This document shows, piece after piece, positions 1 through 60,917 of a stretch of 64,000 nucleotides of DNA. This stretch comes from Lentimicrobium sp. (GTDB taxonomy: Bacteria; Bacteroidota; Bacteroidia; Bacteroidales; Lentimicrobiaceae). The stretch spans positions 1-64,000 of the forward strand of contig JANJXJ010000030.1 of the NCBI GenBank assembly GCA_024709105.1. Reading direction: 5' to 3'. A program made the translations under genes and the position numbers. Within the stretch, counting starts at the first letter, position 1; each line of letters begins with the position of its first letter. The notes under the pieces are model-generated. The model made no database searches, was not told where the DNA came from, and was given only the letters and a program-made list of their open reading frames with translations.

Positions 1-606
1 ACCGGCTGCCATGGGGGTGGGCAATGGTTGACCTGATTTCGAAGGAAGCAGTTTCTTCATTACATTATAAAAGTCCTTTTCTCCATTACTTCCCGGAGGA
101 GAATTAAAATGGATGTGTTTTTCAATAACTGCAGCAGTTGCTGCTATTTGCCCTGTAATCTCAGCAGTAGCTTCAACTACAAGAGTCACAAACAAGGTGT
201 CCTGAGTTGCTGATAAGCGTTGAAATGCCATAAGGTTACAGGGAGATGGCACAGCATACCGCTGATTCACTGTGTTGATGTTCCATCCGTTGGGGTGCCC
301 GTTGTAATAATTACCATCCAGCACTGAGTTGGGAACGCTGGTTACGTTGTAAAATGAGGTTCTGCCTGCATTGTCAACTGTATTGTGGTTGTACATAGGG
401 TCGTATCCCGGCCAGCTGGTATGTACACTGATGGAAGTAATCTTATCGGGGTTGTTCACCAGCAAGGTATGAATAGATGGGTTGTAGGTGGCACATGGGC
501 CGCAGCTGGCTTGTGTAAAATGCTCAAGCAGCACCAGGCGCTGTGATTGTGCAAATAACACAGATGCACTGATTAACAATGCGGTAAGCAGAGTAATTTT
601 TTTCAT
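1..606 (-). CDS. Omp28-like secreted thioredoxin-fold protein (3' end outside window)
   Basis: This reverse-strand frame is open for 202 codons from an ATG at 606 and runs off the left edge, so its C-terminus is missing. The N-terminus is a Sec signal peptide (MKKITLLTALLISASVLFAQ), with cleavage expected after the AQ. The mature part starts RLVLLEHFTQASCGPC, the usual opening of Omp28/thioredoxin-like envelope proteins of Bacteroidota: a short strand, then a CxxC (CGPC) motif. Later segments such as DGNYYNGHPNGW fit the same family. The likely place is the periplasm or outer membrane. A role in thiol-disulfide chemistry is inferred from CGPC only. Whether it also ends in a T9SS sorting domain cannot be seen. 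It is transcribed divergently from the next gene. Confidence 0.75.
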   Translation of the reverse strand, partial: MKKITLLTALLISASVLFAQSQRLVLLEHFTQASCGPCATYNPSIHTLLVNNPDKITSISVHTSWPGYDPMYNHNTVDNAGRTSFYNVTSVPNSVLDGNYYNGHPNGWNINTVNQRYAVPSPCNLMAFQRLSATQDTLFVTLVVEATAEITGQIAATAAVIEKHIHFNSPPGSNGEKDFYNVMKKLLPSKSGQPLPTPMAAG

Positions 607-2089: not shown

Positions 2090-3502
2090 ATGAAGCAACA
2101 GCAAGAGATAACCTACCAATTAGACCTGTTTAATCAAACGGGACAGGAGGTTATCCGCCCTTTTGCCCAAAGTGAAGCCGTAAGCGGAGCTTTACCAACA
2201 AAGGCGTTGCAAATAAAAGGAGCAGGCGAACAAGAACGAGCCTTAACCCACGATTTAATGGGAGCGATATTGTGTCATAGCAATATCCGTCAAGCTTACA
2301 GACAGGTAAAGCAGAACAAAGGAGTAGCAGGCATCGACCAAACGGATGTTGGAGAGTTTTCAGGGTGGTATGCAGAAAAAGGAGAAATCCTAATAAGCAA
2401 ACTACAACAAGGCACTTACCAACCACAAGGAGTAAAGCAAGTTGAAATCCCCAAGCCCAATGGAGGCAAACGCAAATTAGGTATCCCAACTGTAACGGAC
2501 AGGATAATCCAACAAGCGATTGCACAGGTTTTAAGTCCGATTTATGAGCGAAAATTTTCCGACCGTAGCTATGGTTTTCGTCCCAATAGGAGTGCACATC
2601 AAGCACTCAAAAAGGGGAGCGAATATGTAGAGCAGGGTAGAATATACGTTGTAGATATGGATTTGAAAACGTTCTTCGATGTAGTCAATCACGACCGCTT
2701 AATGTATCGACTATCAACCACCATTGGCGATAAAACGTTATTGGGATTGATACGCAAATACTTACAAAGCGGTATAATGATAGACGGAGTTGTAAGCCAA
2801 CGCACCGAAGGCACACCGCAAGGCAGCCCACTCTCGCCCTTGTTGTCTAACATAGTTTTAGACGAATTGGATAAAGAGTTGGAGCGTAGGGGACACAAAT
2901 TTGTTCGCTATGCCGACGATTGCAACATCTATGTACGCAGCCAAGAGGCAGGCGAAAGAGTAATGGAGTCGCTGAGCAACTTTATCGAAAACAAACTTAA
3001 ACTACTTGTCAATAGAGAAAAGAGCCAAGTATGTCAAGTTAACCAAACCAAATTTTTGGGACACACCATCCAAATTGATGGTAACCTGAGTATCGCAAAG
3101 AAAAGTGTTGAACGCTTTAAGGAAAAAATACGCAAGATAACCAAGCGCAACAGAGGCATAAAGTTCGAACAAATAATTGCCGAACTTATCCCTGTTATGC
3201 GAGGTTGGCTGAACTATTTTCACAAAGCCCGATGTAAAAGTTTATTGAAAGAACTTGATTCTTGGATACGCAGAAAACTTCGGTGCTACCGATTAAAGCA
3301 ATGTAAACGTGTATTTACGCTACAACAATTTTTGAAAAGCAGAGGTGTTGAAACTTGGCAAAGCTGGATTTTGGCTTCATCAGGCAAAGGGTATTGGCGT
3401 AAATCGGGTTGTCCGCAAATGCACCAAGCACTTAGTATCAAGTGGTTTGACGAGGTAGGTTTGTACAACCTGTCATTAAATTACACAAGGTTTAACAATT
3501 AA
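2090..3502 (+). CDS. ltrA: Group IIC intron reverse transcriptase/maturase
   Basis: This 470-residue protein is encoded in intron domain IV. Reverse transcriptase blocks are visible in order: NKGVAGIDQ, RKLGIPTVTDRIIQQAI, YGFRPNRSAHQAL, the catalytic VVDMDLKTFFDVVNH, EGTPQGSPLSPLLSNI and FVRYADDCNIYV with the YADD metal-binding pair. The maturase (X/thumb) domain follows (MRGWLNYFHKA; SWIRRKLRCYRLKQCKR), and the C-terminus has the KGYWRKSG and QMHQAL segments typical of group IIC enzymes. There is no HNH endonuclease domain, as expected for class C, which uses the terminator hairpin as target. The protein helps the RNA fold and splice and copies it into DNA. An N-terminal extension of roughly 50 residues precedes the first RT block. 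No frameshift is seen. Confidence 0.93.
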   Translation: MKQQQEITYQLDLFNQTGQEVIRPFAQSEAVSGALPTKALQIKGAGEQERALTHDLMGAILCHSNIRQAYRQVKQNKGVAGIDQTDVGEFSGWYAEKGEILISKLQQGTYQPQGVKQVEIPKPNGGKRKLGIPTVTDRIIQQAIAQVLSPIYERKFSDRSYGFRPNRSAHQALKKGSEYVEQGRIYVVDMDLKTFFDVVNHDRLMYRLSTTIGDKTLLGLIRKYLQSGIMIDGVVSQRTEGTPQGSPLSPLLSNIVLDELDKELERRGHKFVRYADDCNIYVRSQEAGERVMESLSNFIENKLKLLVNREKSQVCQVNQTKFLGHTIQIDGNLSIAKKSVERFKEKIRKITKRNRGIKFEQIIAELIPVMRGWLNYFHKARCKSLLKELDSWIRRKLRCYRLKQCKRVFTLQQFLKSRGVETWQSWILASSGKGYWRKSGCPQMHQALSIKWFDEVGLYNLSLNYTRFNN

Positions 3503-4331: not shown

Positions 4332-5893
4332 GCGACAACAATCAAAAACCTAAAAAAGGCATTTCGCGCCGCGATGTACTTGCCGGCCTCGCATCACTGC
4401 CTCTGCTCGGAGCCCTGGGATATGGCCTTTATCTTAATTCGCAGGATCGCAAAAAATACAGTGCTGATATTCTTCACAATATTAAACCTGTTATTCCCAA
4501 AGGAATTCCGCCATTGGTTGAAGGACCAGAACTCAGGCTTGGGTTAGTTGGCACGGGGGGCCGTGGCCGATACATTATGAAAGCGCTGGGGTTTGTAAAT
4601 CCGGCACGTATTGATGAATGGAACAGCAATGCAGCAACCGACAAATACTGGGAAGAATACCTGAAAGAATTTCGGAATCAGGAAAACCTGAACGTTAAAA
4701 TCACTGCTGTATGCGATGTTTTTGATAACAATGCTGAAAGCGGAATGGCTGCCGGAGCCAATATTCACAGGAATGGAACCAACGGAAACATGGGAGATGC
4801 TCCCAAACGCTTCCTTACCTATCAGGAGTTGTGCGCTTCGCCCGATGTGGATGCTGTAATCATCGCCACGCCCGATCATCTGCATGTGCCGGTGGTGCTG
4901 GAGGCTGCCAGACATGGTAAACACGTTTATTGCGAAAAACCCTTGTCATGGACAGTCCCCGAAACCTTTGAAGTAAGAAAAGTTGTAAAAGATACCGGAA
5001 TTGTTTTTCAGCTGGGACATCAGGGCAGGCAAACCGAAAGTTATCAGGTTGCCCGTTCATTGATTGAGCAGGATGTTATTGGCAAAATCTCGCTCATCGA
5101 AGTGTGTACCAACCGGAACGACCCCAACGGGGCTTGGGTGTATGATATTGACCCGGCAGCCAGTGAACAGACCATTGACTGGAAACAATTTATTGGCCCT
5201 GCTCCCTGGCACGATTTCAGCCTGGAACGTTTTTTCAGGTGGCGCTGCTGGTGGGACTACAGCACCGGATTGAGCGGCGACCTGTTTACTCATGAATACG
5301 ATGCGCTCAATCAAATTCTTGATCTGGGAATCCCGCACTCAGCCATGGCTTCGGGAGGAATATATTTTTACAAGGATGGCCGCACAGTTCCCGATGTTCT
5401 GAATATGGCTTTTGAATATCCTGACAAAGACCTGACACTGCTATACAGCGCAACACTCAGCAGCGAAAAAAACAGGGGTAAATCCATTATGGCGCACGAT
5501 GCCTGGATGGAGCTGGATGAAACACTCACAGTTTATCCCGATCGCAGTTCCACCCGTTATCGCGACCAGATTAAACAGGGAATTATAGAACCGGGCAAAC
5601 CTTTGTTCAGCTATATTCCCGGACAAGACCGCATTGATGCCATAACCACACCCACCGAAAAATATTTTGCAGGGCGTGGGCTGCTTTATACCTACCGTGA
5701 TGGTAAAGCAGTGGATACTACCAATTTGCATTTGCGCGAATGGCTCAACTGCATCAGGCTCAACAATGGCGCTCAGCCCAGTTGCGATATTGATCAGGCT
5801 TTTGAAGAAGCCATTACCGCACATATGGGAACAATTTCGTACCATGAAGGCCGGAGAACTTACTGGGACAAAGAAAAGGAAGAGATTGTCTGA
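4328..5893 (+). CDS. Exported Gfo/Idh/MocA family oxidoreductase
   Basis: A 521-residue protein with a twin-arginine export signal (SRRDVLAGLASLPLLGALG, residues 13-31). A Rossmann NAD(P)-binding fold starts at LGLVGTGGRG (residues 71-80). The family's DHLHVPVV and GKHVYCEKPLSW follow, with the conserved Glu-Lys-Pro at 203-205. The C-terminal half is the alpha/beta substrate domain, with WRCWWDYSTGLSGDLFTHE as in family members acting on sugars. These enzymes oxidise or reduce sugar hydroxyls or carbonyls; Tat export allows folding around the cofactor in the cytoplasm first. In this operon it probably makes or reduces 3-keto sugars in the periplasm. It is longer than the usual 350-450 residues, with an insertion after the first Rossmann strand (about residues 85-125). 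Confidence 0.87.
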   Translation: MSDNNQKPKKGISRRDVLAGLASLPLLGALGYGLYLNSQDRKKYSADILHNIKPVIPKGIPPLVEGPELRLGLVGTGGRGRYIMKALGFVNPARIDEWNSNAATDKYWEEYLKEFRNQENLNVKITAVCDVFDNNAESGMAAGANIHRNGTNGNMGDAPKRFLTYQELCASPDVDAVIIATPDHLHVPVVLEAARHGKHVYCEKPLSWTVPETFEVRKVVKDTGIVFQLGHQGRQTESYQVARSLIEQDVIGKISLIEVCTNRNDPNGAWVYDIDPAASEQTIDWKQFIGPAPWHDFSLERFFRWRCWWDYSTGLSGDLFTHEYDALNQILDLGIPHSAMASGGIYFYKDGRTVPDVLNMAFEYPDKDLTLLYSATLSSEKNRGKSIMAHDAWMELDETLTVYPDRSSTRYRDQIKQGIIEPGKPLFSYIPGQDRIDAITTPTEKYFAGRGLLYTYRDGKAVDTTNLHLREWLNCIRLNNGAQPSCDIDQAFEEAITAHMGTISYHEGRRTYWDKEKEEIV

Positions 5894-5946
5894 AAGAAAA
5901 GTAACGAAATCGTGTTTTTAAGGCTCATTAATAAAACAAAGATCAA

Positions 5947-6798
5947 ATGGCATCACGAAGAGATTTTCTGAAATCAGTGCCTTTATTTACCGGAGCCATG
6001 GCTTTGGGACTTGGCGCATCATGTATCAACAGTAAAAATGAAAAAGGCATGGACGTTGGAATTCAGCTGTGGACCCTGCGCAATGATGTTGCCCGTGATC
6101 TCGATGGCACGCTCACTGCACTTGCCGGCATGGGATACAATAGTATTGAGGCTTTTGGCTTTGACGGGAAGTTTTTTGGGCGCGATGCTGTTGCTTTTGG
6201 TCAGTTGATAAAGGATCTGGGTATGAGCCTACACAGTACCCATACCGGCATTACATCAGAAAATGCAGATCAGTATGCAGAAGCCGCAGCAAAGGCCGGA
6301 CTGGAATATCTGGTTTTGCCCTCTATGATGGGTCGTTCCGAAGCCACTGCCGATGATTTCAGGAAAACTGCAGCTGAAATGAACCTGATTGGAGCAGCCT
6401 GCAGGAAACACGGGTTGCAATTTGCCTATCACAATCATGATTTTGAGTTCAGGCCGGTTGATGGCGAAATTCCATACGATATTTTTCTCGCTGAAACCGA
6501 TGCTGAATTAGTTCATTTTCAGGCAGATTTGTACTGGATGGTAAAAGCAGGGAAAGATCCGGTTGATTATTTCAGCAAACACCCTTCAAGGTTTTCTACC
6601 TGGCACATCAAAGATATGGCCACAGATGGTGCAAGCTGTATCATTGGTAATGGTAAAATTGATTTTAAAACCATTATGCTGTCGGCTAAAACAGCCGGAC
6701 TAAACAGGATATTTGTTGAGCAGGAACAATATGCCGAGGGCACTCCGCTGCAATGTGCCGAACAAAGCCTGAATTACATTAAAAAGAACCTATTGTAA
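5947..6798 (+). CDS. Exported sugar phosphate isomerase/epimerase-like TIM-barrel protein
   Basis: The 283-residue product has an unusual export signal: a twin-arginine motif (SRRDFLKS, residues 3-10) and then a lipobox LGASC with Cys26, suggesting a Tat-exported lipoprotein. The rest is the AP endonuclease 2/xylose isomerase-like TIM barrel: VGIQLWTLRNDV at the first strand, SIEAFGFDGKFFG, LHSTHTG, AYHNHDFEF with a metal-binding His, WHIKDM, and EQEQYAEG with an acidic metal ligand. Family members isomerise or epimerise sugars and polyols, and some act on 3-keto sugars. The neighbours on both sides are Gfo/Idh/MocA enzymes 18-53 bases away, so it belongs to the same pathway. The exact substrate cannot be told. 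Confidence 0.83.
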   Translation: MASRRDFLKSVPLFTGAMALGLGASCINSKNEKGMDVGIQLWTLRNDVARDLDGTLTALAGMGYNSIEAFGFDGKFFGRDAVAFGQLIKDLGMSLHSTHTGITSENADQYAEAAAKAGLEYLVLPSMMGRSEATADDFRKTAAEMNLIGAACRKHGLQFAYHNHDFEFRPVDGEIPYDIFLAETDAELVHFQADLYWMVKAGKDPVDYFSKHPSRFSTWHIKDMATDGASCIIGNGKIDFKTIMLSAKTAGLNRIFVEQEQYAEGTPLQCAEQSLNYIKKNLL

Positions 6799-52801: not shown

Positions 52802-55426
52802 ATGGAAATTGCCGCCAAGTACGACCCTTCAGGTATCGAGGAAAAATGGTATCAGCACTGGTTAAATAAAAATTATTTTCGCTCTGTCCCCGACGAACGG
52901 GAACCCTATACCATCGTAATTCCTCCGCCAAATGTAACCGGAGTGTTGCATATGGGACACATGCTCAATAATACCATACAGGATGTGCTGGTGCGCAGAG
53001 CCAGAATGCAGGGCAAAAATGCATGCTGGCTGCCGGGTACCGACCATGCTTCCATAGCTACTGAAGCCAAAGTGGTTGCTAAACTTAAGGAACAGGGCAT
53101 CGAAAAATCGTCTCTCACCCGCGATGAGTTTCTTGCCCATGCCTGGGAATGGAAAGAAAAACATGGTGGAATCATTCTCGAACAACTCAAAAAACTTGGA
53201 GCTTCCTGCGACTGGGAGCGCACAAAGTTTACCATGGATCAGGATTTATACCAGTCGGTGATTGATGTTTTTGTTGATCTCTACAACAAAGGCTTAATCT
53301 ATCGGGGTGTGCGCATGGTTAACTGGGATCCGCAGGCTCTCACTGCCCTGAGCGACGAAGAGGTAATTTACAAGGAAGTAAAATCCAAATTGTATTATCT
53401 GAGATACAGAGTAGAAGGCACTGCCGACGAGTGGGTTACCATTGCCACCACCCGCCCCGAAACCATTTTGGGCGATACCGCCGTTTGTGTGCATCCCGAA
53501 GATGAAAGATTCAGGCACCTGAAAGGAAAAAGAGTACTTGTTCCCTTGATCAAACGCTCTATTCCCGTGATTGAAGATGAATATGTTGACCGCGAGTTTG
53601 GTACAGGCTGCCTGAAAATAACTCCTGCTCACGACATAAACGATTATACCATCGGACTCAAATACAATCTTGAATCCATCGATATTTTCAATGACAATGG
53701 CACCCTGAACGAAAAGGCGCTGCTTTACATAGGTATGGATCGCTTTGAGGTTCGGGAAAAAATTACCGAAGACCTCCTGAATCATGGCCATATCCTTAAA
53801 ATCGAGGATTATGTTAACAACGTTGGTTTTTCTGAGCGCACCGATGCTGTAATTGAACCCAAATTGTCGGTTCAGTGGTTTCTTAAAATGGAAGAAATGG
53901 CTAAACCGGCGCTTGAAGTGGTAATGAACGATACGGTGAAATTTCATCCTGAAAAGTTCAAAAACACTTACAGACACTGGATGGAGAATGTTCGCGACTG
54001 GTGTATCAGCCGTCAGTTGTGGTGGGGTCAGCGTATTCCGGCATATTATCTTTCTACCGGTGAAGTAATTGTGGCTGCCAGTGCAGAAGAGGCACTTGCA
54101 AAAGCTCGCGAGATTTCAAAAAATCCCGGACTGACGGCTTCCGACCTAAGGCAGGATGAAGATGTGCTGGATACCTGGTTCTCATCCTGGTTGTGGCCCA
54201 TTTCGGTGTTTGATGGTATCAGAAATCCTGAAAATCCGGATATAAAGTATTACTATCCGACCAACGATCTGGTGACTGCGCCCGAAATTTTATTCTTCTG
54301 GGTTGCACGCATGATTATGGCCGGATTGGAATACCGGAATGAAATTCCTTTCAAAAATGTATATCTTACCGGTATTGTGCGCGACAAGCTTGGAAGGAAA
54401 ATGTCGAAATCGCTCGGCAATTCGCCCGATCCGCTTGGGTTGATTGAAAAATTCGGGGCCGATGGTGTCAGGGTTGGAATGTTGCTTACATCACCTGCCG
54501 GAAATGACCTGCCTTTCGACGAAAGTCTTTGCGAGCAGGGCCGCAATTTCAGCAACAAGATATGGAATGCCCTGCGGCTGGTAAAGGGCTGGCAGGCAGA
54601 TTCAACGCTTGAGCAGCCTCAATACGCAGCTGCTGCCATTGAATGGTTTGATGCTAAATTAAACAGCAGCCTGGCACTTATCGAGGACAATTTTGCCAAA
54701 TACAGGCTCAGTGATGCCTTGATGACTGCGTATAAATTGGTTTGGGACGATTTCTGCTCCTGGTACCTCGAGATGGTAAAACCGGCTTATCAGCAGCCCA
54801 TAGATAGCAAAACACTCGCTGCCAGTGTTGGTTTCTTTGAAAAACTGATGCAGGTTTTACATCCGTTTATGCCTTTTATTACTGAAGAAATCTGGCATTT
54901 GCTGAATAGCAGGGGAGAAGAAAGTATAATGCTGAGCCCGATGCCTGCTGCCGGAGATTATAATCCGGAATTGCTGAATTGGTTCGAACAGGCTTCAGAA
55001 GCTGTTATCGGAATCAGAAATATCAGAAAAGATAAAAATCTTCCGTTCAAGGATAAGGTTGATCTGATGATCAAAGGTGAAAATCCTGCGAAGTACTTCG
55101 ACGAAGTAGTTGCCAAACTGGGCAATATTTCATCGCTTACATATGTGGAAACAAAGCCCGCTGCTTCGGCTGGTTTTGTTGTGAAAGCAACCGAGTATTA
55201 CATCCCGCTCGGGCAAGGCGTTGACCTTGAGGCCGAAAAGGAAAAACTTATGAAAGAGCTGGAATATACTCAGGGATTTCTGGCATCGGTTGAAAAGAAA
55301 CTCAACAACGAGAAGTTTGTAAGCAATGCCAAACCCGAGGTTGTCGAAAACGAACGTCAGAAACAGGCTGATGCCATAGGCAGAATGGAAATACTAAAAG
55401 CTGCTCTTTCCGACCTGGGAATTTAG
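52802..55426 (+). CDS. valS: Valine--tRNA ligase
   Basis: An 874-residue class I aminoacyl-tRNA synthetase that charges tRNA-Val. The HIGH-type motif is HMGH (residues 50-53) after PPPNVTGVL, and the KMSKS loop is exact (533-537). [18 protein letters not shown] and the editing domain ([32 protein letters not shown]) are clear. The C-terminus ends in the valyl-specific coiled coil ([19 protein letters not shown]) that touches the tRNA. The length is normal. Confidence 0.98.
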
Positions 55427-55447
55427 CCTTTGAAAATCAAATTTATC

Positions 55448-55490
55448 TGGCCTGCCGCGAAAATCATTAATTCCAGCAGGCCATTTTTTT
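55448..55490 (+). terminator. valS terminator
   Basis: TGGCCTGC (55448-55455) pairs with GCAGGCCA (55476-55483) across a 20-base loop, followed by seven T's. Confidence 0.8.
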
Positions 55491-55523
55491 ATTTATTACC
55501 ATTTGTGTAAGTTTTTTTTATTC

Positions 55524-55559
55524 TTTGGTAGTGCTTATTGAGGAATTACTTTATATTTG
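55524..55559 (+). promoter_or_regulatory. Cold-shock gene promoter
   Basis: TTTG (55524-55527), 24 bases, TATATTTG (55552-55559). The start site would be near 55566, so the longer frame from 55538 cannot be translated from this promoter; the start is 55586. Confidence 0.5.
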
Positions 55560-55585
55560 CGCTTATTTTTAATATCACCAATAAC

Positions 55586-55777
55586 ATGAAAACAGGAAAA
55601 GTTAAATTCTTCAATGAATCAAAAGGTTACGGATTTATCCTTGACGATGAGTCCGGAAAAGAGTACTTCGTTCATGCAACTGGTCTGATTGACCGCGTTA
55701 ACGAAGGTGATGCAGTTACTTTTGAACTTCAGGAAGGACGCAAAGGCTTAAACGCCGTTAAGGTAAAATTAGCCTAA
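55586..55777 (+). CDS. Cold-shock domain protein
   Basis: A 63-residue single-domain OB-fold protein (MKTGKVKFFNESKGYGFILD) with both nucleic-acid binding motifs: KGYGFIL (RNP1) and EYFVHAT (RNP2). It binds single-stranded RNA or DNA and acts as an RNA chaperone. It is monocistronic between two terminators, which is normal for the family. Confidence 0.96.
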   Translation: MKTGKVKFFNESKGYGFILDDESGKEYFVHATGLIDRVNEGDAVTFELQEGRKGLNAVKVKLA

Positions 55778-55804
55778 TATTATAGGTTTTTGCTTTAATC
55801 TTTC

Positions 55805-55834
55805 GGGGCTGTTGTGAAAACAACAGCCCCTTTT
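55805..55834 (+). terminator. Cold-shock gene terminator
   Basis: GGGGCTGTTG pairs with CAACAGCCCC around TGAAAA, followed by four T's. Confidence 0.9.
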
Positions 55835-55858
55835 GATTAAATATCAGCAAATAATAGC

Positions 55859-55899
55859 GTCTAAATCAGGTATTTCAGGTCTGAAATCGTAATTTAGAC
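55859..55899. promoter_or_regulatory. Nested inverted repeat upstream of the HmuY/TonB locus
   Basis: GTCTAAAT (55859-55866) faces ATTTAGAC (55892-55899), and inside, on almost the same centre, ATTTCAG (55872-55878) faces CTGAAAT (55881-55887). The whole dyad is 41 bases and ends 32 bases before a TATTTTTG -7 box. It looks more like a binding site for a dimeric regulator than a terminator, as no T run follows. Confidence 0.5.
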
Positions 55900-55930
55900 A
55901 ATTTCTAAATAATTGTTATGTGTTAAATAT

Positions 55931-55938
55931 TATTTTTG
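55931..55938 (+). promoter_or_regulatory. Promoter -7 element of the HmuY/TonB locus
   Basis: TATTTTTG matches TAnnTTTG, 42 bases before the first gene of the locus; a TTG with 15 bases spacing is the nearest -33 candidate. Confidence 0.4.
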
Positions 55939-55979
55939 TAGTGAAATTCAACCGGTAAGCAGGTTGCTTTCAGCTAACG

Positions 55980-56333
55980 ATGAACACAAACAGAACTTTA
56001 TGTGTTAGGACAAGGGTTGCCCTGCTGGCAACTGCTTTTCTTGTGTTCTGGATTTATCTTGGCTCGCTGATTAACTTTCACCAGCATCATATCTTTGGCC
56101 GGACACTAATCCCCAACGGGATACTGAGCAAACGAGAAGAAACTATTACAGTTTCGCAGGAATTGCCTTCGCTCATCAATTTCCTGTTACCGGCAGATGT
56201 GCCCGAAAGCTGCAATCACCTGCCTGTTGTTGAATTTACCGATGTAACTATTCCCACCCATAGTTTCATAGCATTTATTTCTATTGGCATTCCCGCCAGT
56301 CACGGATTAAGGGGCCCTCCTGCACAATCCTGA
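55980..56333 (+). CDS. Small membrane-anchored protein with His cluster, unknown function
   Basis: 117 residues: a basic N-terminus, one hydrophobic segment (about 13-33, VALLATAFLVFWIYLGSLI), then a periplasmic part with NFHQHHIFG, one Cys and the ending LRGPPAQS. I do not recognise a family. It lies at the head of the HmuY/TonB locus, 79 bases before the T9SS HmuY gene, with its own promoter box. The His cluster could bind metal or heme; that is a guess from context. Coding is supported by the signal-anchor and the promoter, not by homology. Confidence 0.55.
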   Translation: MNTNRTLCVRTRVALLATAFLVFWIYLGSLINFHQHHIFGRTLIPNGILSKREETITVSQELPSLINFLLPADVPESCNHLPVVEFTDVTIPTHSFIAFISIGIPASHGLRGPPAQS

Positions 56334-56412
56334 TTATCAGCCATTCTTTTTAATTTCTGCGCCAGGGCGGTTGCCCCGGTTGCATATTATTTAATTCCTA
56401 AATTACTTTCTA

Positions 56413-57648
56413 ATGAAAACTTTTAACGCACTCAGTATATCACTCGGGTTAATGCTGGCATTCTTTGTATTTCCGACCCACGCTCAAACCACTCACACCG
56501 CTTCCATGGGGAATCAATACGTAAATGAAGTATTCTTTTCACTAACTCAGGGAGAAGTTAAAAACTCAGCAAGAAATACCTGGGACCTTGCTTTCTTTAC
56601 CAATGCCTTTAGTGCCGGAGTAATGATTAACGACGGAGCAGGAGTAGCACTTTATACATATCCATACGCTGCAAATGATGGTTGGGAGACTTTCGATACC
56701 ACTGGCATGGGCACATGGAAAAGACTTTACAATAATTGCGCCGATTACGAAGATGGCGCTTTTAACCGCAATGCTCTGGGTCATCCGGATTACGGCTGGG
56801 GAATTTACAATATGACTTCACACAGTGTAACCGGCGATTCATTGTATCTGATAAAACCTCTTGACGGAGTTTACAGAAAATTCCAGATTGTGAAGAAGAT
56901 TTCAACTGAAAACAAGTACATCATTCGTTACGCTTTTCTGGATGGCAGCAACGATAAAACCGACACACTTAATATAAATCAGCATACTGATAAGCTTACC
57001 ATGGCTTTTTCATTTACCGGTGGAATTGTGGATCGTGAGCCGGCAAAAGACAGCTGGGATCTGTTGTTTACACGCTATCACACTATGGTGCAGTCGACTT
57101 ACTATCCTGTAAACGGTGTATTGACCAATAAAAGTAATGTGGTTGCTCAGGTACATCCGGTTGCCATTGACTTCACCGATTGGGTTGACCTTGAGTATCT
57201 TCCTCAGGCCGATGTTATTGGCCACGACTGGAAAACCATCAATATGACCACTTTCCAGTGGGACATAACAGATTCACTTGCTTATTTTATCAAAACCCAG
57301 AACGAATCAATATACAAAGTTGTTTTTGAAGCCTTTTCTGGTTCAGGAACAGGAACTTCTACTTTCAGTGTTCAGGCTCTGGTAACTGCTTCAGCCGGGA
57401 ATCTTAATGCCGGAGTTGTTTCAATTTATCCCAATCCAGCTACTGAGGTTATTAAAATTGAACTCAGGGAAATGCCTGTGAATGCTTCAGCTGCAATTTA
57501 CGATTTGAGCGGTAGAATGGTAAAACAGCAGCAACTTTCCAGTTCACTGCTGCATGAAATCAGTCTGGATTATCTGGTTGCCGGAACATACATTCTCAGG
57601 CTTACTGACAATAATCGTTCGGCCTCATATAAAATTCTGGTGCACTGA
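56413..57648 (+). CDS. T9SS-secreted HmuY-like heme-binding protein
   Basis: 411 residues with a signal peptide ending at about 24 (FPTHAQ). The main part (25-320) is HmuY-like, with the recurring tryptophan-aspartate strands NTWDLAFFTN, DSWDLLFTRY and DVIGHDWKTIN. The C-terminal 80 residues are a type A T9SS sorting domain (SIYPNPATEVIKI to SASYKILVH). HmuY proteins take heme at the surface and pass it to a TonB-dependent receptor; the receptor gene overlaps this stop by one base. HmuY is usually a lipoprotein, so secretion by T9SS is a variant. Heme as ligand is inferred from family. Confidence 0.8.
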   Translation: MKTFNALSISLGLMLAFFVFPTHAQTTHTASMGNQYVNEVFFSLTQGEVKNSARNTWDLAFFTNAFSAGVMINDGAGVALYTYPYAANDGWETFDTTGMGTWKRLYNNCADYEDGAFNRNALGHPDYGWGIYNMTSHSVTGDSLYLIKPLDGVYRKFQIVKKISTENKYIIRYAFLDGSNDKTDTLNINQHTDKLTMAFSFTGGIVDREPAKDSWDLLFTRYHTMVQSTYYPVNGVLTNKSNVVAQVHPVAIDFTDWVDLEYLPQADVIGHDWKTINMTTFQWDITDSLAYFIKTQNESIYKVVFEAFSGSGTGTSTFSVQALVTASAGNLNAGVVSIYPNPATEVIKIELREMPVNASAAIYDLSGRMVKQQQLSSSLLHEISLDYLVAGTYILRLTDNNRSASYKILVH

Positions 57649-59864
57649 TGAAGATTCATTTCTTTGTTGCGTTGTGTTGTGTTTTATTACCGGCACTGGT
57701 ATTAAGTCAGCAGGAGCCGGTGCGTGTAACTGATGCACGCACTGGCAAACCTGTGGCTTTTGCTCATGTTAAGGCAACAGAGTTGGGTAGCAAATCTGCA
57801 AAGTTTTTTGTTACTGATTATGAAGGGTATATAAAATTCACCCTTCAGAAGCCAACCATATTTCAGGTTTCATATGTTGGATATCAGACATTTAACGATA
57901 CACTTTTTCCCGGTGTACCTGCAATAGTAAACCTGCTCCCCGAGGTGTTTTCGCTTGATGAAGTGGTGGTTACTGCGCAATACAATCCGGTAAGTGCCGA
58001 CCGTTCGCTTTACAAAGTCAACGTTATCAACCAGATGCAGCTACGCAGGAGTGCAGCGCCCGATCTTACCGGATTGCTTCGCAATCAGATGAACATACGG
58101 TTTTCGCAGGATGCTTCATTAGGTGCTGGAATGAGTTTGCAAGGGCTTTCGGGTGAACACGTTAAAATTCTGATTGATGGCATCCCGGTTATCGGACGCC
58201 TGAACGGAAGTATTGACCTGAGCCAGATTAATCTGCAAAACGCTGCGCAGGTTGAAATTATTGAAGGGCCAATGTCCATCATTTATGGCAGTAATGCGCT
58301 CGCAGGGGTAGTGAATGTGATTCCTGCCGAAATTCCTGAAAATTCAATTTCGGCAAATGCCGGCACCTACCTCGAATCGGTGGGCATTATAAATTTTGAC
58401 GGTGGCTTCAGTATCCGCAAAGGTAAAAATGCATTCGGGCTGCAAGCTGGCCGGAATTTCTTTGCCGGATATTCACCCGAGGAACAGGGCAGATCAGAAT
58501 TATGGAAACCCCGCCGCCAGGTAAATACTGACATTACTCACAGCCTTACCCTGCCAAAACTCAAAATGGACAACCGGGCCAGCTTTTTTGATGAACTGTT
58601 GCTGGTGAGAGGCAATCTTACTCCTCCATACTTCGAAAAAGCATTTGATAATCATTTTATTACCCGGCGAACCACCTTGAAATCTGATTTATCAACCCGT
58701 GGCGCAAATCCATTCAGAATGAGCAACTCACTTTCGTTTTACAACCGGATGCGCACCTTGTTTTATAATGATCTTACCATTCCGCAGAAAACTCCCACTG
58801 AATACGATACAACCGGTTTTGGCTCATTCCTTTCGCGCGGAGTATATGCTTACAGAAATGAAACCGGTAAATTCGGAACCCAGTTCGGTTATGATCTCAA
58901 TACAGAATGGGGAACCGGGAAACGGTTGGGAAGTAATTCTCAAAACATCACCGATCTGGCTGCATTTGCTACCTTTCAGTACCAGCCAGCCGATTGGCTG
59001 TCGTTTCAGCCCGGATTAAGGTATGCTTACAATTCAAGGTTCAGTTCTCCGCTGATTTATGCACTTCATGCCAAGGCCGGAACTTTTAAGGGTTTTATAC
59101 TGAGAGGTTCATATTCTTCCGGTTTCAGGGCACCTTCACTCAAAGAATTGTATCTGTTTTTTGTTGATGTAAATCACAACATTACAGGCAATCCCGATCT
59201 TAAGCCCGAAAATTCAAAACATGTTCAGTTGCAGATTTCGCATCGCATTGAAAAAACAACCTATGCCACAGAAACCGAAGCCAGATTTTTTCTTAATGAT
59301 ATCAGGAATCAGATAACTCTGGCACAGTCTGAAGGTGACTCCTATTCTTACTTTAACCTGGATAAAGCGCAAACCATGGGTTATTCATTCGGGATCAGAT
59401 CCACACTTTATCCACTGTTTGATCTAAGGCTGGGATATGGTAATACAGGCTCTTCAAATAAGCTCAGCAACGAAAATACTCTGAAACTGTACTGGTCACC
59501 CGAGCTCACCGCAGAGGTTACCTGCCGCATGGAAGAAATTGATTTCCATATAACAGCAATTTATAAATACACCGGAAAAGCCACTCAATTTTATACCGGG
59601 AATGATGGAGTGATTTATCAGGGTTACATGGATTCCTATAATAATCTTGACCTTACATTGCTGAAATCCTTTTTCAAAAGAAGGTTATCAGTAAACCTGG
59701 GTGTTAGAAATCTGTTTGATGTTACCAACATTTCTTCTGTTGCCGGTTCAGGAGGTGTTCATTCTGGTGGAAGCAGCAGCGCACCGGTTGCCTGGGGCCG
59801 CACTTACTTTGTAAAACTCAACTACAACTTCTCCAAAAATGAAAAGGCAGATCCTCAGAAATAG
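57648..59864 (+). CDS. TonB-dependent outer-membrane receptor (probable heme/iron)
   Basis: 738 residues. After the signal peptide come a carboxypeptidase-like beta domain (VTDARTGKPVAFAHVKATE, about 25-100), the plug (LDEVVVTAQYNPVSAD, then GLSGEHVKILIDGIPV and IEGPMSIIYGSNALAGVVNVI) and a beta-barrel ending in an aromatic residue-containing strand (TYFVKLNYNFSK). It imports a ligand energised by TonB. Its position between two HmuY-like genes points to heme. It overlaps the upstream gene by one base and the downstream one by 26. Confidence 0.88.
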   Translation: MKIHFFVALCCVLLPALVLSQQEPVRVTDARTGKPVAFAHVKATELGSKSAKFFVTDYEGYIKFTLQKPTIFQVSYVGYQTFNDTLFPGVPAIVNLLPEVFSLDEVVVTAQYNPVSADRSLYKVNVINQMQLRRSAAPDLTGLLRNQMNIRFSQDASLGAGMSLQGLSGEHVKILIDGIPVIGRLNGSIDLSQINLQNAAQVEIIEGPMSIIYGSNALAGVVNVIPAEIPENSISANAGTYLESVGIINFDGGFSIRKGKNAFGLQAGRNFFAGYSPEEQGRSELWKPRRQVNTDITHSLTLPKLKMDNRASFFDELLLVRGNLTPPYFEKAFDNHFITRRTTLKSDLSTRGANPFRMSNSLSFYNRMRTLFYNDLTIPQKTPTEYDTTGFGSFLSRGVYAYRNETGKFGTQFGYDLNTEWGTGKRLGSNSQNITDLAAFATFQYQPADWLSFQPGLRYAYNSRFSSPLIYALHAKAGTFKGFILRGSYSSGFRAPSLKELYLFFVDVNHNITGNPDLKPENSKHVQLQISHRIEKTTYATETEARFFLNDIRNQITLAQSEGDSYSYFNLDKAQTMGYSFGIRSTLYPLFDLRLGYGNTGSSNKLSNENTLKLYWSPELTAEVTCRMEEIDFHITAIYKYTGKATQFYTGNDGVIYQGYMDSYNNLDLTLLKSFFKRRLSVNLGVRNLFDVTNISSVAGSGGVHSGGSSSAPVAWGRTYFVKLNYNFSKNEKADPQK

Positions 59865-60864
59865 TTTTTTTACCTTCATGGTTTTGCTGTTAAGTTCCTG
59901 CTTTAAGGAAGATGAGAAGGTAATTCCGCTAAAGCCGGGCAATGTTGAAACCTACGTTATTGAGATGTTGCCCGAATATACCATTCAATCCTATTTCAGT
60001 TTTTCGGATGGAGGAATTGTTGCATCAAATGATCGCAGCCACTGGGATATGGCATTGAGTTGCGAACCAGGCGATTATACACTCTGGCTCAATACCTCGG
60101 TTTTTATGAAAGCCGCCCGCACTGGTGTATTCGACTTCAATGTATCTGTCAGCTCTCAAAACCTTGAATTGTTATTTGATGAATCCACTGGCAGGATTGA
60201 AGGAAATGCAATAGGCAAATGGTGGATCAATAACAGCCAAGGATTGCAGGGCGATGGTGAAGTTATTTTAATTGACCGAGGCATTGACAGTGAAGGAGAA
60301 CAACGTGGTTTCGTTAAAATTCAACCTTCTTTTGATCCTGTTTCTGGCGAAGTAATGATCAGGATTGCAGCTACCAATGGCAGCAATGAGCGTTCATTTG
60401 TTATAACCCGCGAAAATGGAAGAAGAGTTACTGCTTTTTCGTTTGATACCGGGATAAGTATTCCTCAGCCAGAACCATCCCCGAATCAATGGGATATATT
60501 ATTCACTACTTACACTACCTTGCTTTTTACCAACACCGGAGAGCCTTATCCTTACCTGGTTAACGGAGTATTGCTTAATGATACCTTAGTAAAAGCTGCA
60601 TTGGATACCCTGGTATCTTTCGAAGAAGTAAGCCGTGAATATGCTGAAAGTCTTCAGCTTTCATATCAGAAAGACATCATCGGTTACGACTGGAAGGCTA
60701 TAAATGGCGATGTAACTTCAGGAAATATTACCTACACTGCCCGGCCCGGCTGGAATTATATCATCCGCGACCGGTTCGGGGTTTTTTATAAATTGCGTTT
60801 TATTGACTTTTATAACAGTCAGGGCAAGAAGGGTTACCCAACTTTTGAGGTTCAGAGGCTGTAA
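59839..60864 (+). CDS. HmuY-like heme-binding lipoprotein
   Basis: 341 residues with a lipoprotein signal (MVLLLSSC, Cys21). It has the same tryptophan-aspartate strands as the upstream HmuY (SHWDMALSCE, NQWDILFTTY, DIIGYDWKAIN) and the ending TFEVQRL. No sorting domain. It is the classical lipid-anchored form and probably presents heme to the same receptor. It starts inside the receptor gene (26-base overlap). A terminator follows. Confidence 0.82.
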   Translation: MKRQILRNSFFTFMVLLLSSCFKEDEKVIPLKPGNVETYVIEMLPEYTIQSYFSFSDGGIVASNDRSHWDMALSCEPGDYTLWLNTSVFMKAARTGVFDFNVSVSSQNLELLFDESTGRIEGNAIGKWWINNSQGLQGDGEVILIDRGIDSEGEQRGFVKIQPSFDPVSGEVMIRIAATNGSNERSFVITRENGRRVTAFSFDTGISIPQPEPSPNQWDILFTTYTTLLFTNTGEPYPYLVNGVLLNDTLVKAALDTLVSFEEVSREYAESLQLSYQKDIIGYDWKAINGDVTSGNITYTARPGWNYIIRDRFGVFYKLRFIDFYNSQGKKGYPTFEVQRL

Positions 60865-60890: not shown

Positions 60891-60917
60891 AAAACCCGGC
60901 CTGTGCAACCGGGTTTT
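60891..60917 (+). terminator. Terminator of the HmuY/TonB locus
   Basis: AAAACCCGG pairs with CCGGGTTTT around nine bases. Confidence 0.8.

Follow-up and report, generated by a model that had tools for sequence, protein, structure and literature searches.

The Hmu system of Porphyromonas gingivalis (HmuY-HmuR-HmuSTUV) combines an HmuY-fold protein and a TonB receptor of the two-histidine NPDL type in one operon, an arrangement shared by the locus described here. T9SS genes are known beside hmuY in Porphyromonas endodontalis and P. intermedia (PMC11208336, PMC10434189), and in the hmu operon of P. endodontalis, as described in PMC11208336, POREN0001_0445, a gene with a T9SS sorting domain, precedes hmuY and shares its transcript, which has its parallel at our locus. 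A precedent for regulation is CruR-BfrG-Bp2921 of Bordetella pertussis, where a DUF2946 uORF encodes a small exported leader with a C-terminal RAPP, followed by a TonB receptor gene; a small leader with this type of C-terminal motif before a TonB receptor gene is also found here. According to that report, the nascent exported leader stalls at RAPP before the receptor gene, Rho termination is prevented, and copper relieves this state (PMC9426467). RAPP/RGPP small ORFs before TonB-related genes have been described in silico as a class across Gram-negative bacteria, and our locus has in common with these uORFs a RAPP/RGPP small ORF before a TonB receptor gene (Fujiwara et al. 2025, PMC12992588). 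According to the same source, RAPP and RGPP support strong arrest in various contexts, and few tetrapeptides are avoided as much by bacteria.

We analyzed a stretch of 64,000 nt from Lentimicrobium sp. (GCA_024709105.1, contig JANJXJ010000030.1, positions 1 to 64,000 of the forward strand), termed the window. Gene order, folds, the sorting tail, the lipobox, receptor histidines, leader conservation, and operon partners were computed. Between two terminator-like hairpins, the window contains four ORFs in the same direction, which encode a leader, a first HmuY-type protein (HmuY1), a TonB receptor, and a second HmuY-type protein (HmuY2). The features are as follows:

55805..55830, + strand: terminator-like hairpin, upstream boundary before the leader (11 pairs, loop of 4, T-run; pattern match only)
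55980..56333, + strand: leader ORF, 117 aa (N-terminal membrane segment, NFHQHH, variable middle, terminal LRGPPAQS)
56073..56090, + strand: leader codons 32-37, NFHQHH (H34 invariant in alignment A1, 37 sequences)
56310..56321, + strand: leader codons 111-114, RGPP arrest-type motif, 3 residues before the stop (motif: PMC12992588, PMC9426467)
56413..57648, + strand: HmuY1, 411 aa (signal peptide, HmuY core with inserted beta domain, T9SS type A sorting domain)
56782..56823, + strand: HmuY1 codons H124 to H137 (GHPDYGWG..TSH), within the insert (conservation in alignments A3 and A4)
57424..57642, + strand: HmuY1 T9SS sorting domain, residues 338-410 (PF18962 8.5e-13, TIGR04183 4.7e-13; VIA-align)
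57648..59864, + strand: TonB-dependent receptor, 738 aa, with FRAP and NPDL boxes, H510, and H705 (Pfam; alignment)
59839..60864, + strand: HmuY2, 341 aa, lipoprotein (LSSC-FKEDE), HmuY core with inserted beta domain (Pfam, model, alignment)
60898..60915, + strand: terminator-like hairpin, downstream boundary after HmuY2 (pattern match only)

We give a probability of roughly 0.6 to the reading that these four genes form a surface acquisition operon for heme, or a related tetrapyrrole, under the control of a CruR-like arrest leader. The leader and HmuY1 are separated by 79 nt, whereas HmuY1 and the receptor overlap by 1 nt (TGATG) and the receptor and HmuY2 by 26 nt. An earlier note on this DNA had described a T9SS HmuY, a TonB receptor, and a lipoprotein HmuY, closely coupled through overlapping genes; Pfam and the computed overlaps bear out both the arrangement and the coupling, and the note had overlooked the fourth part, the leader ORF. 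About 40 nt 5' of the leader start, at 55931-55938, lies TATTTTTG, which we take to match the Bacteroidota -7 promoter element. The gap between leader and hmuY1 contains an imperfect GC hairpin in the window (about 56361-56383). An intrinsic terminator or a conserved RNA switch at this position was considered and rejected: no common hairpin was found in the gaps from leader stop to hmuY1 start across the leaders compared, and no Rfam match was obtained at the gathering threshold in 55400-56700. Since no conserved terminator hairpin is found in the gap, a switch at the level of transcription is assumed rather than seen. Elsewhere in the window, positions 2090-3502 hold a 470-aa ORF that, by eye, resembles a group II intron reverse transcriptase.

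Both HmuY-type proteins match PF14064 above the cut-off of 27, HmuY1 with 31.9 bits (1.8e-7) and HmuY2 with 50.7 bits (2.7e-13), and they are the only PF14064 matches in their genome. The two are relatives, as the earlier note had proposed, with 28% identity over 321 aa (BLASTP, E 7e-15) in an alignment that spans the DVIGHDWK and DIIGYDWK blocks. Their AlphaFold models have mean pLDDT values of 92.2 (HmuY1) and 93.2 (HmuY2). In VIA-align searches, seven solved HmuY-type entries (8 chain rows when BfrC is counted) headed both lists, with Z scores of 15.4-12.2 for HmuY2 and 14.1-11.0 for HmuY1. HmuY1 aligned with 6r2h (Z 14.1, rmsd 3.1, 135 residues) and with the HmuY-heme structure 3h8t (Z 12.9, rmsd 3.0, 132 residues); HmuY2 aligned with 3h8t (Z 15.4, rmsd 2.4, 140 residues) and with Bacteroides fragilis BfrB/HmuY-Bf-2 (8b6a, Z 15.2), and the first other fold followed at Z 9.5. 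According to the models, each protein consists of a single HmuY core interrupted by a large, beta-rich insert, which in HmuY2 covers approximately residues 76-210. Two Pfam stretches in HmuY1 and two WD strands had hinted at two HmuY repeats per protein. This possibility was rejected because the solved HmuY structures cover each model from its first core strand through to its last (33..341 and 23..327), which leaves one core with a large insert. In two loci, L117 (HmuY1 at 5373-6653) and L118, the N-terminal core strands are absent from HmuY1, and between core and sorting tail comes a stretch that matches them (MGPGYANEVYY...GVELYTYPYADTSGW), an arrangement that resembles a natural circular permutation.

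The two proteins differ in their anchors, as had been claimed. The tail of HmuY1 scores 48.9 bits against a cut-off of 23 with TIGR04183 and 8.5e-13 with Por_Secre_tail, and it aligns with the T9SS sorting domains 8qb1 (Z 11.6) and 8glk (Z 11.1); the genome encodes SprA (2686 bits). HmuY1 thus has the characteristics of T9SS type A cargo, namely, a sorting domain above the cut-off and a T9SS in its genome. Among the best 80 of 174 loci from a scan of named genomes, the sorting tail was present in 67 of 71 HmuY1 proteins. HmuY2 has a lipobox in 80 of 81 sequences, and at least two Asp or Glu residues are found among the next six residues in 74 of the 81. Such charged lipoprotein signals direct Bacteroidota lipoproteins to the surface, and the lipobox and charged residues after the Cys of HmuY2 follow this pattern. 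Judged by these signals, both HmuY proteins are probably located on the outer face. The earlier note is supported as regards two different anchors around one receptor; its suggested split into a released and a docked hemophore is not decided by the anchors. A lipobox takes the place of the sorting tail of HmuY1 in three loci (L230, L234, and L246), and in L244 it coexists with a remnant of the tail, as if caught in the middle of an anchor swap; surface placement thus seems to be kept in this minority while the anchor changes. The normal HmuY1 tail is also missing in L116, L123, L126, and L128, and the tail-less group, with the four loci above, mostly bears a lipobox.

The HmuY1-receptor-HmuY2 array was followed through several genome samples. 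The family sample consisted of 19 genomes of a single genus, including that of the window. HmuY1 (48-68% identity) was found in 14 of the 18 other genomes (15/19 with our own) and HmuY2 in 16 of the 18 (17/19 with our own); the contigs of G011 and G016 stop short of HmuY1, and G006 and G015 contain neither protein. At the order level, HmuY2 was detected at E 1e-5 in 43 of 295 genomes. The best 80 of 174 loci belong to metagenome genomes of Bacteroidales and Flavobacteriales, several of them named Lentimicrobium or Lentimicrobiaceae, and also include two entries with the titles Chlorobiota and simply bacterium, as well as the strain Taishania pollutisoli CZZ-1 (L265). The three genes occurred together in 71 of these 80 loci, which makes the triplet a conserved unit and answers the survey that the earlier note had called for; its counter-scenario, in which the paralogues serve unrelated receptors in relatives, did not hold. 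With start codons taken mechanically, gaps of at most 20 nt were seen in 67 of the 71 loci between receptor and HmuY2 and in 49 of the 71 between HmuY1 and receptor. A separate set of 49 array loci overlaps with the best-80-of-174 set (for example, G013:C7 and L190), and counts from the two are not additive. One genome, G024, contains two copies of the array (L102 and L111), of which L111 has a second, more distant TonB receptor directly after HmuY2.

Several lines of evidence bear on the ligand. The receptor matches the Pfam TonB barrel (9.9e-25) and Plug families, and H510, between the FRAP and NPDL boxes, is conserved in 70 of 70 sequences and H705 in 68 of 70. Two histidines together with FRAP/NPDL boxes are features of HmuR and HemR (PMC3832793); our receptor accordingly shows the heme-receptor motif, with FRAP and NPxL boxes, a His between them, and a second conserved His. 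Its scores with the curated heme-receptor models were below the cut-offs (TIGR01785, 100 bits against 316.85; TIGR01786, 102.9 against 323.75), and the B12, hemoglobin, and hemin models scored alike (1.4e-30, 1.5e-29, and 1.2e-28), with TonB-B12 best numerically. From its motifs, the protein is a probable TonB-dependent outer-membrane heme gate. The heme role proposed in the earlier note appears likely, considering these histidines and the hemN/PPO operons that relatives of the leader precede. In the own genome, we found cytochrome bd and no match for ferrochelatase or CobN. Within the genus, cytochrome bd was present in 18 of 19 genomes and ferrochelatase in 2 of 19, and these two, G018 and G015, are the members with a leader-headed hem operon. 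At the order level, ferrochelatase was found in 6 of 43 genomes with the array against 67 of 252 without it, a weak trend (Fisher p 0.087). Additional genes lie between HmuY1 and the receptor in three loci: genes for a CbiX-type chelatase and PepSY in L259 (2739-4249) and L268 (2680-4224), and a DUF6607 gene in L265 (2947-3876).

Within the HmuY pair, conserved histidines are confined to HmuY1. H137 is present in 37 of 37 sequences of alignment A3 and 63 of 67 of A4, and H124 in 55 of 67 of A4, both belonging to the GHPDYGWG..H motif of the insert and lying outside what we take to be the HmuY pocket positions. HmuY2 has no invariant His or Met in the alignments and may consequently not bind heme by iron coordination. 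This distribution suggests a division of labor different from the one proposed earlier. Not all known HmuY proteins coordinate iron, some paralogues bind neither heme nor porphyrin, and several paralogues per genome are known (PMC12106395).

The leader has no match in Pfam or NCBIfam. It shows the features of a RAPP-type arrest uORF, that is, a small ORF with a localization signal, here an N-terminal membrane segment, a C-terminal R(A/G)PP, and a downstream gene in the same direction. BLAST from the window leader retrieved 33 leaders including itself, and all 33 end with R[AG]PP within the last eight residues; many of them were matched by N-terminal similarity only, and this set is free of bias from motif selection. 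By motif and position, a leader was recognized in 36 of the 49 array loci and absent from 13, two of which (L110 and L113) have RGSP instead. In the best-80-of-174 set, 47 of 67 loci have a leader (25 RAPP, 20 RGPP, and 2 RGSP), always with the motif 2-4 residues before the stop. The absences (20/67 and 13/49) concern above all Flavobacteriales. In the cultured strain T. pollutisoli CZZ-1, which has HmuY1, the receptor, and HmuY2, a leader was likewise not detected. Among 1857 other ORFs of 60-250 aa in the 49-locus set, 4 end with R[AG]PP, and all four are leaders missed by BLAST, leaving 0 of the remaining 1853.

The motif codons of the 47 leaders include all six Arg and all four Pro codons, which argues that the peptide itself is under selection. 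In close leader pairs, dN was well below dS, except for L135/L136, which are too close to tell. In three genus pairs of middling distance, the middle of the leader is 36-42% identical against 67-76% for the ends, with 74-76% for the first 50 residues. The spacing between the NFH-type motif and RxPP is 78-87 residues in 32 of 36 leaders. In A1, H34 is invariant; the invariance of R111, P113, and P114 in this alignment is partly due to the selection of ORFs by that motif. DUF2946 does not appear among the family matches listed for the window leader and the 37 members, and CXXC is absent from the conserved columns of A1.

Searched against the 295 genomes of the order, the leader profile gave 32 strong matches (E 1e-6 or better) in 31 genomes, and all 32 head receptor operons with HmuY or porphyrin genes; 24 of them are in the training set A1 and were hence expected, and 8 are outside it. 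The array is headed by 26 of the 32 (24 in the profile), including L093 and L096, both without HmuY1. Three strong matches outside the profile head receptor-HmuY pairs (L179, L180, and L181; HmuY by Pfam) and three others receptor-MFS-hemN-PPO operons (L177 and L178, from the same genus as the window, and L182), with hemN and PPO assigned by NCBIfam; the MFS gene was assigned by Pfam in L178 and judged by eye in L177 and L182. In L177 and L178, hemH is on the opposite strand. Two leaders occur in G018, preceding the array and the hem operon, respectively; in G015, only a hem operon is headed by one. A role of the leader as T9SS monitor was set aside because it also heads the operons of L093, L096, and L177-L182. 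Of 15 weaker matches in the order (E 1e-4 to 0.01), six (L183-L188) were examined; weaker relatives contain HxH and HAHPY-like motifs together with RAPP, and L184 heads an OEP/CusB-like/RND set. L183-L188 and L271 represent a further leader type, rich in His and with RAPP/RGPP (HxH ... HAHPY or HSH), that precedes operons for RND efflux or with other receptors and is possibly a metal-sensing sister group. In a phylum sample, the profile matched 2 of 395 genomes at E 1e-3, our own and G658 (two weak matches), with downstream genes judged by eye only.

These data can be combined into a mechanism, of which heme binding, surface hand-over, arrest, the part of Rho, and the signal are what we infer. 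HmuY1 would be exported by Sec and then cross the outer membrane through the type IX system, to catch heme outside, probably via the histidines of its insert domain. HmuY2, held by its lipid anchor and probably facing outward, would act at the TonB receptor by handing over the ligand or by stabilizing the complex, and the receptor would import the ligand along its two-histidine path. The membrane-targeted leader would stall its own ribosome at the C-terminal R(A/G)PP, and by analogy with CruR, the stalled ribosome would keep Rho away, so that transcription could continue into the operon. Once the emerging leader senses ligand through NFHQHH, the stall would be relieved and the operon turned off. 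Because NFHQHH lies about 80 residues ahead of the stall site, it could be outside the membrane or beyond the translocon at that moment, and since a leader with a ribosome-stalling motif heads the operon, the cell may sense supply while making the leader. That the leader arrests the ribosome is likely; given arrest, the chance that heme or a porphyrin is the signal falls slightly short of even. We tentatively propose, at odds below even, that the leader is a heme- or porphyrin-sensing arrest peptide, in which H34 would sample the ligand outside the membrane during the R(A/G)PP hold, and that hemophore-pair arrays, receptor-HmuY pairs, and receptor-MFS-hemN-PPO operons would all be under such a sensor, with no dedicated regulator protein.

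Other explanations of the leader must be weighed against this proposal. Purifying selection and the membrane segment would also fit a leader that is just a small protein of the uptake machinery, either secreted or in the membrane, such as a chaperone or a metal-binding peptide, whose RAPP end has no role in translation; the variable middle between conserved ends, the motif position just before the stop, the fixed spacing, and the general avoidance of RAPP and RGPP (PMC12992588) make this very unlikely. Secretion is monitored by RAPP/RGPP arrest peptides encoded ahead of sec and yidC genes (PMC10987492, PMC12992588), and a leader with an N-terminal membrane segment might likewise monitor Sec or membrane insertion rather than heme; under poor export, the stall would persist and expression of an outer-membrane operon with a high demand for export would rise. 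We regard this as unlikely: all 32 strong relatives (24 in the training set) precede receptor operons with HmuY or hemN/PPO and not sec genes, and the invariant H34 would be left unexplained.

The nature of the ligand can be questioned as well. The RAPP leader CruR, which precedes a TonB receptor gene, senses copper (PMC9426467), and the divergent relatives with HxH..HAHPY, such as that heading the OEP-CusB-like-RND set of L184, precede operons of metal-efflux type, so the signal could be a transition metal (copper or zinc) and the array could import the metal or its chelate rather than heme. The FRAP-His-NPDL receptor, the HmuY folds, the CbiX and hemN/PPO partners, and a leader without conserved CXXC speak against this, and we consider it improbable. 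Less easily dismissed, albeit still unlikely, is another tetrapyrrole, namely, coproporphyrin, protoporphyrin, or cobalamin. The MFS-hemN-PPO operons would suit imported coproporphyrin(ogen), TonB-B12 is the best numerical model match of the receptor, and HmuY2 is similar to 8b6a, a paralogue for which a preference for protoporphyrin, with no coordination of iron, is reported (PMC12106395). However, with no ferrochelatase match in the genome, this enzyme would not be available to complete an iron-free porphyrin, and the receptor has two conserved histidines.

In the open-licence PMC literature, we found no report of HmuY with a leader peptide or of HmuY in Lentimicrobi-; for heme-linked arrest peptides, we found nothing beyond two papers, one of them on CruR, which was the only one that also concerned TonB. 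The locus provides a concrete and widely kept two-catcher variant of Hmu in uncultured Bacteroidota that seem incapable of completing heme with a ferrochelatase, and it ties the uptake of heme to a RAPP-type leader. A response of this leader to heme would mean that a nascent chain acts as the heme sensor. The leader motif can further serve as a marker of heme-related operons in poorly annotated genomes.

Compared with Hmu of P. gingivalis, the operon has two HmuY-fold proteins instead of one, both enlarged by inserts and one with a T9SS tail, and contains no hmuSTUV genes. POREN0001_0445 of P. endodontalis, compared by description only, is portrayed as beta-barrel-like, and the portion of PMC11208336 considered here mentions no leader. 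Unlike CruR, our leader has no DUF2946 match and no CXXC and possesses an invariant His after the membrane segment; the distance from His to motif is 78-87 residues against 45 residues in CruR, and its partners are HmuY and porphyrin genes. The portion of Fujiwara et al. 2025 considered here (PMC12992588) does not mention heme and names no family with such a histidine motif, HmuY, or porphyrin operons. HmuY with one receptor was already known, whereas the two-catcher array, as a form of Hmu, and the leader, as a form of RAPP uORF, appear to be new.
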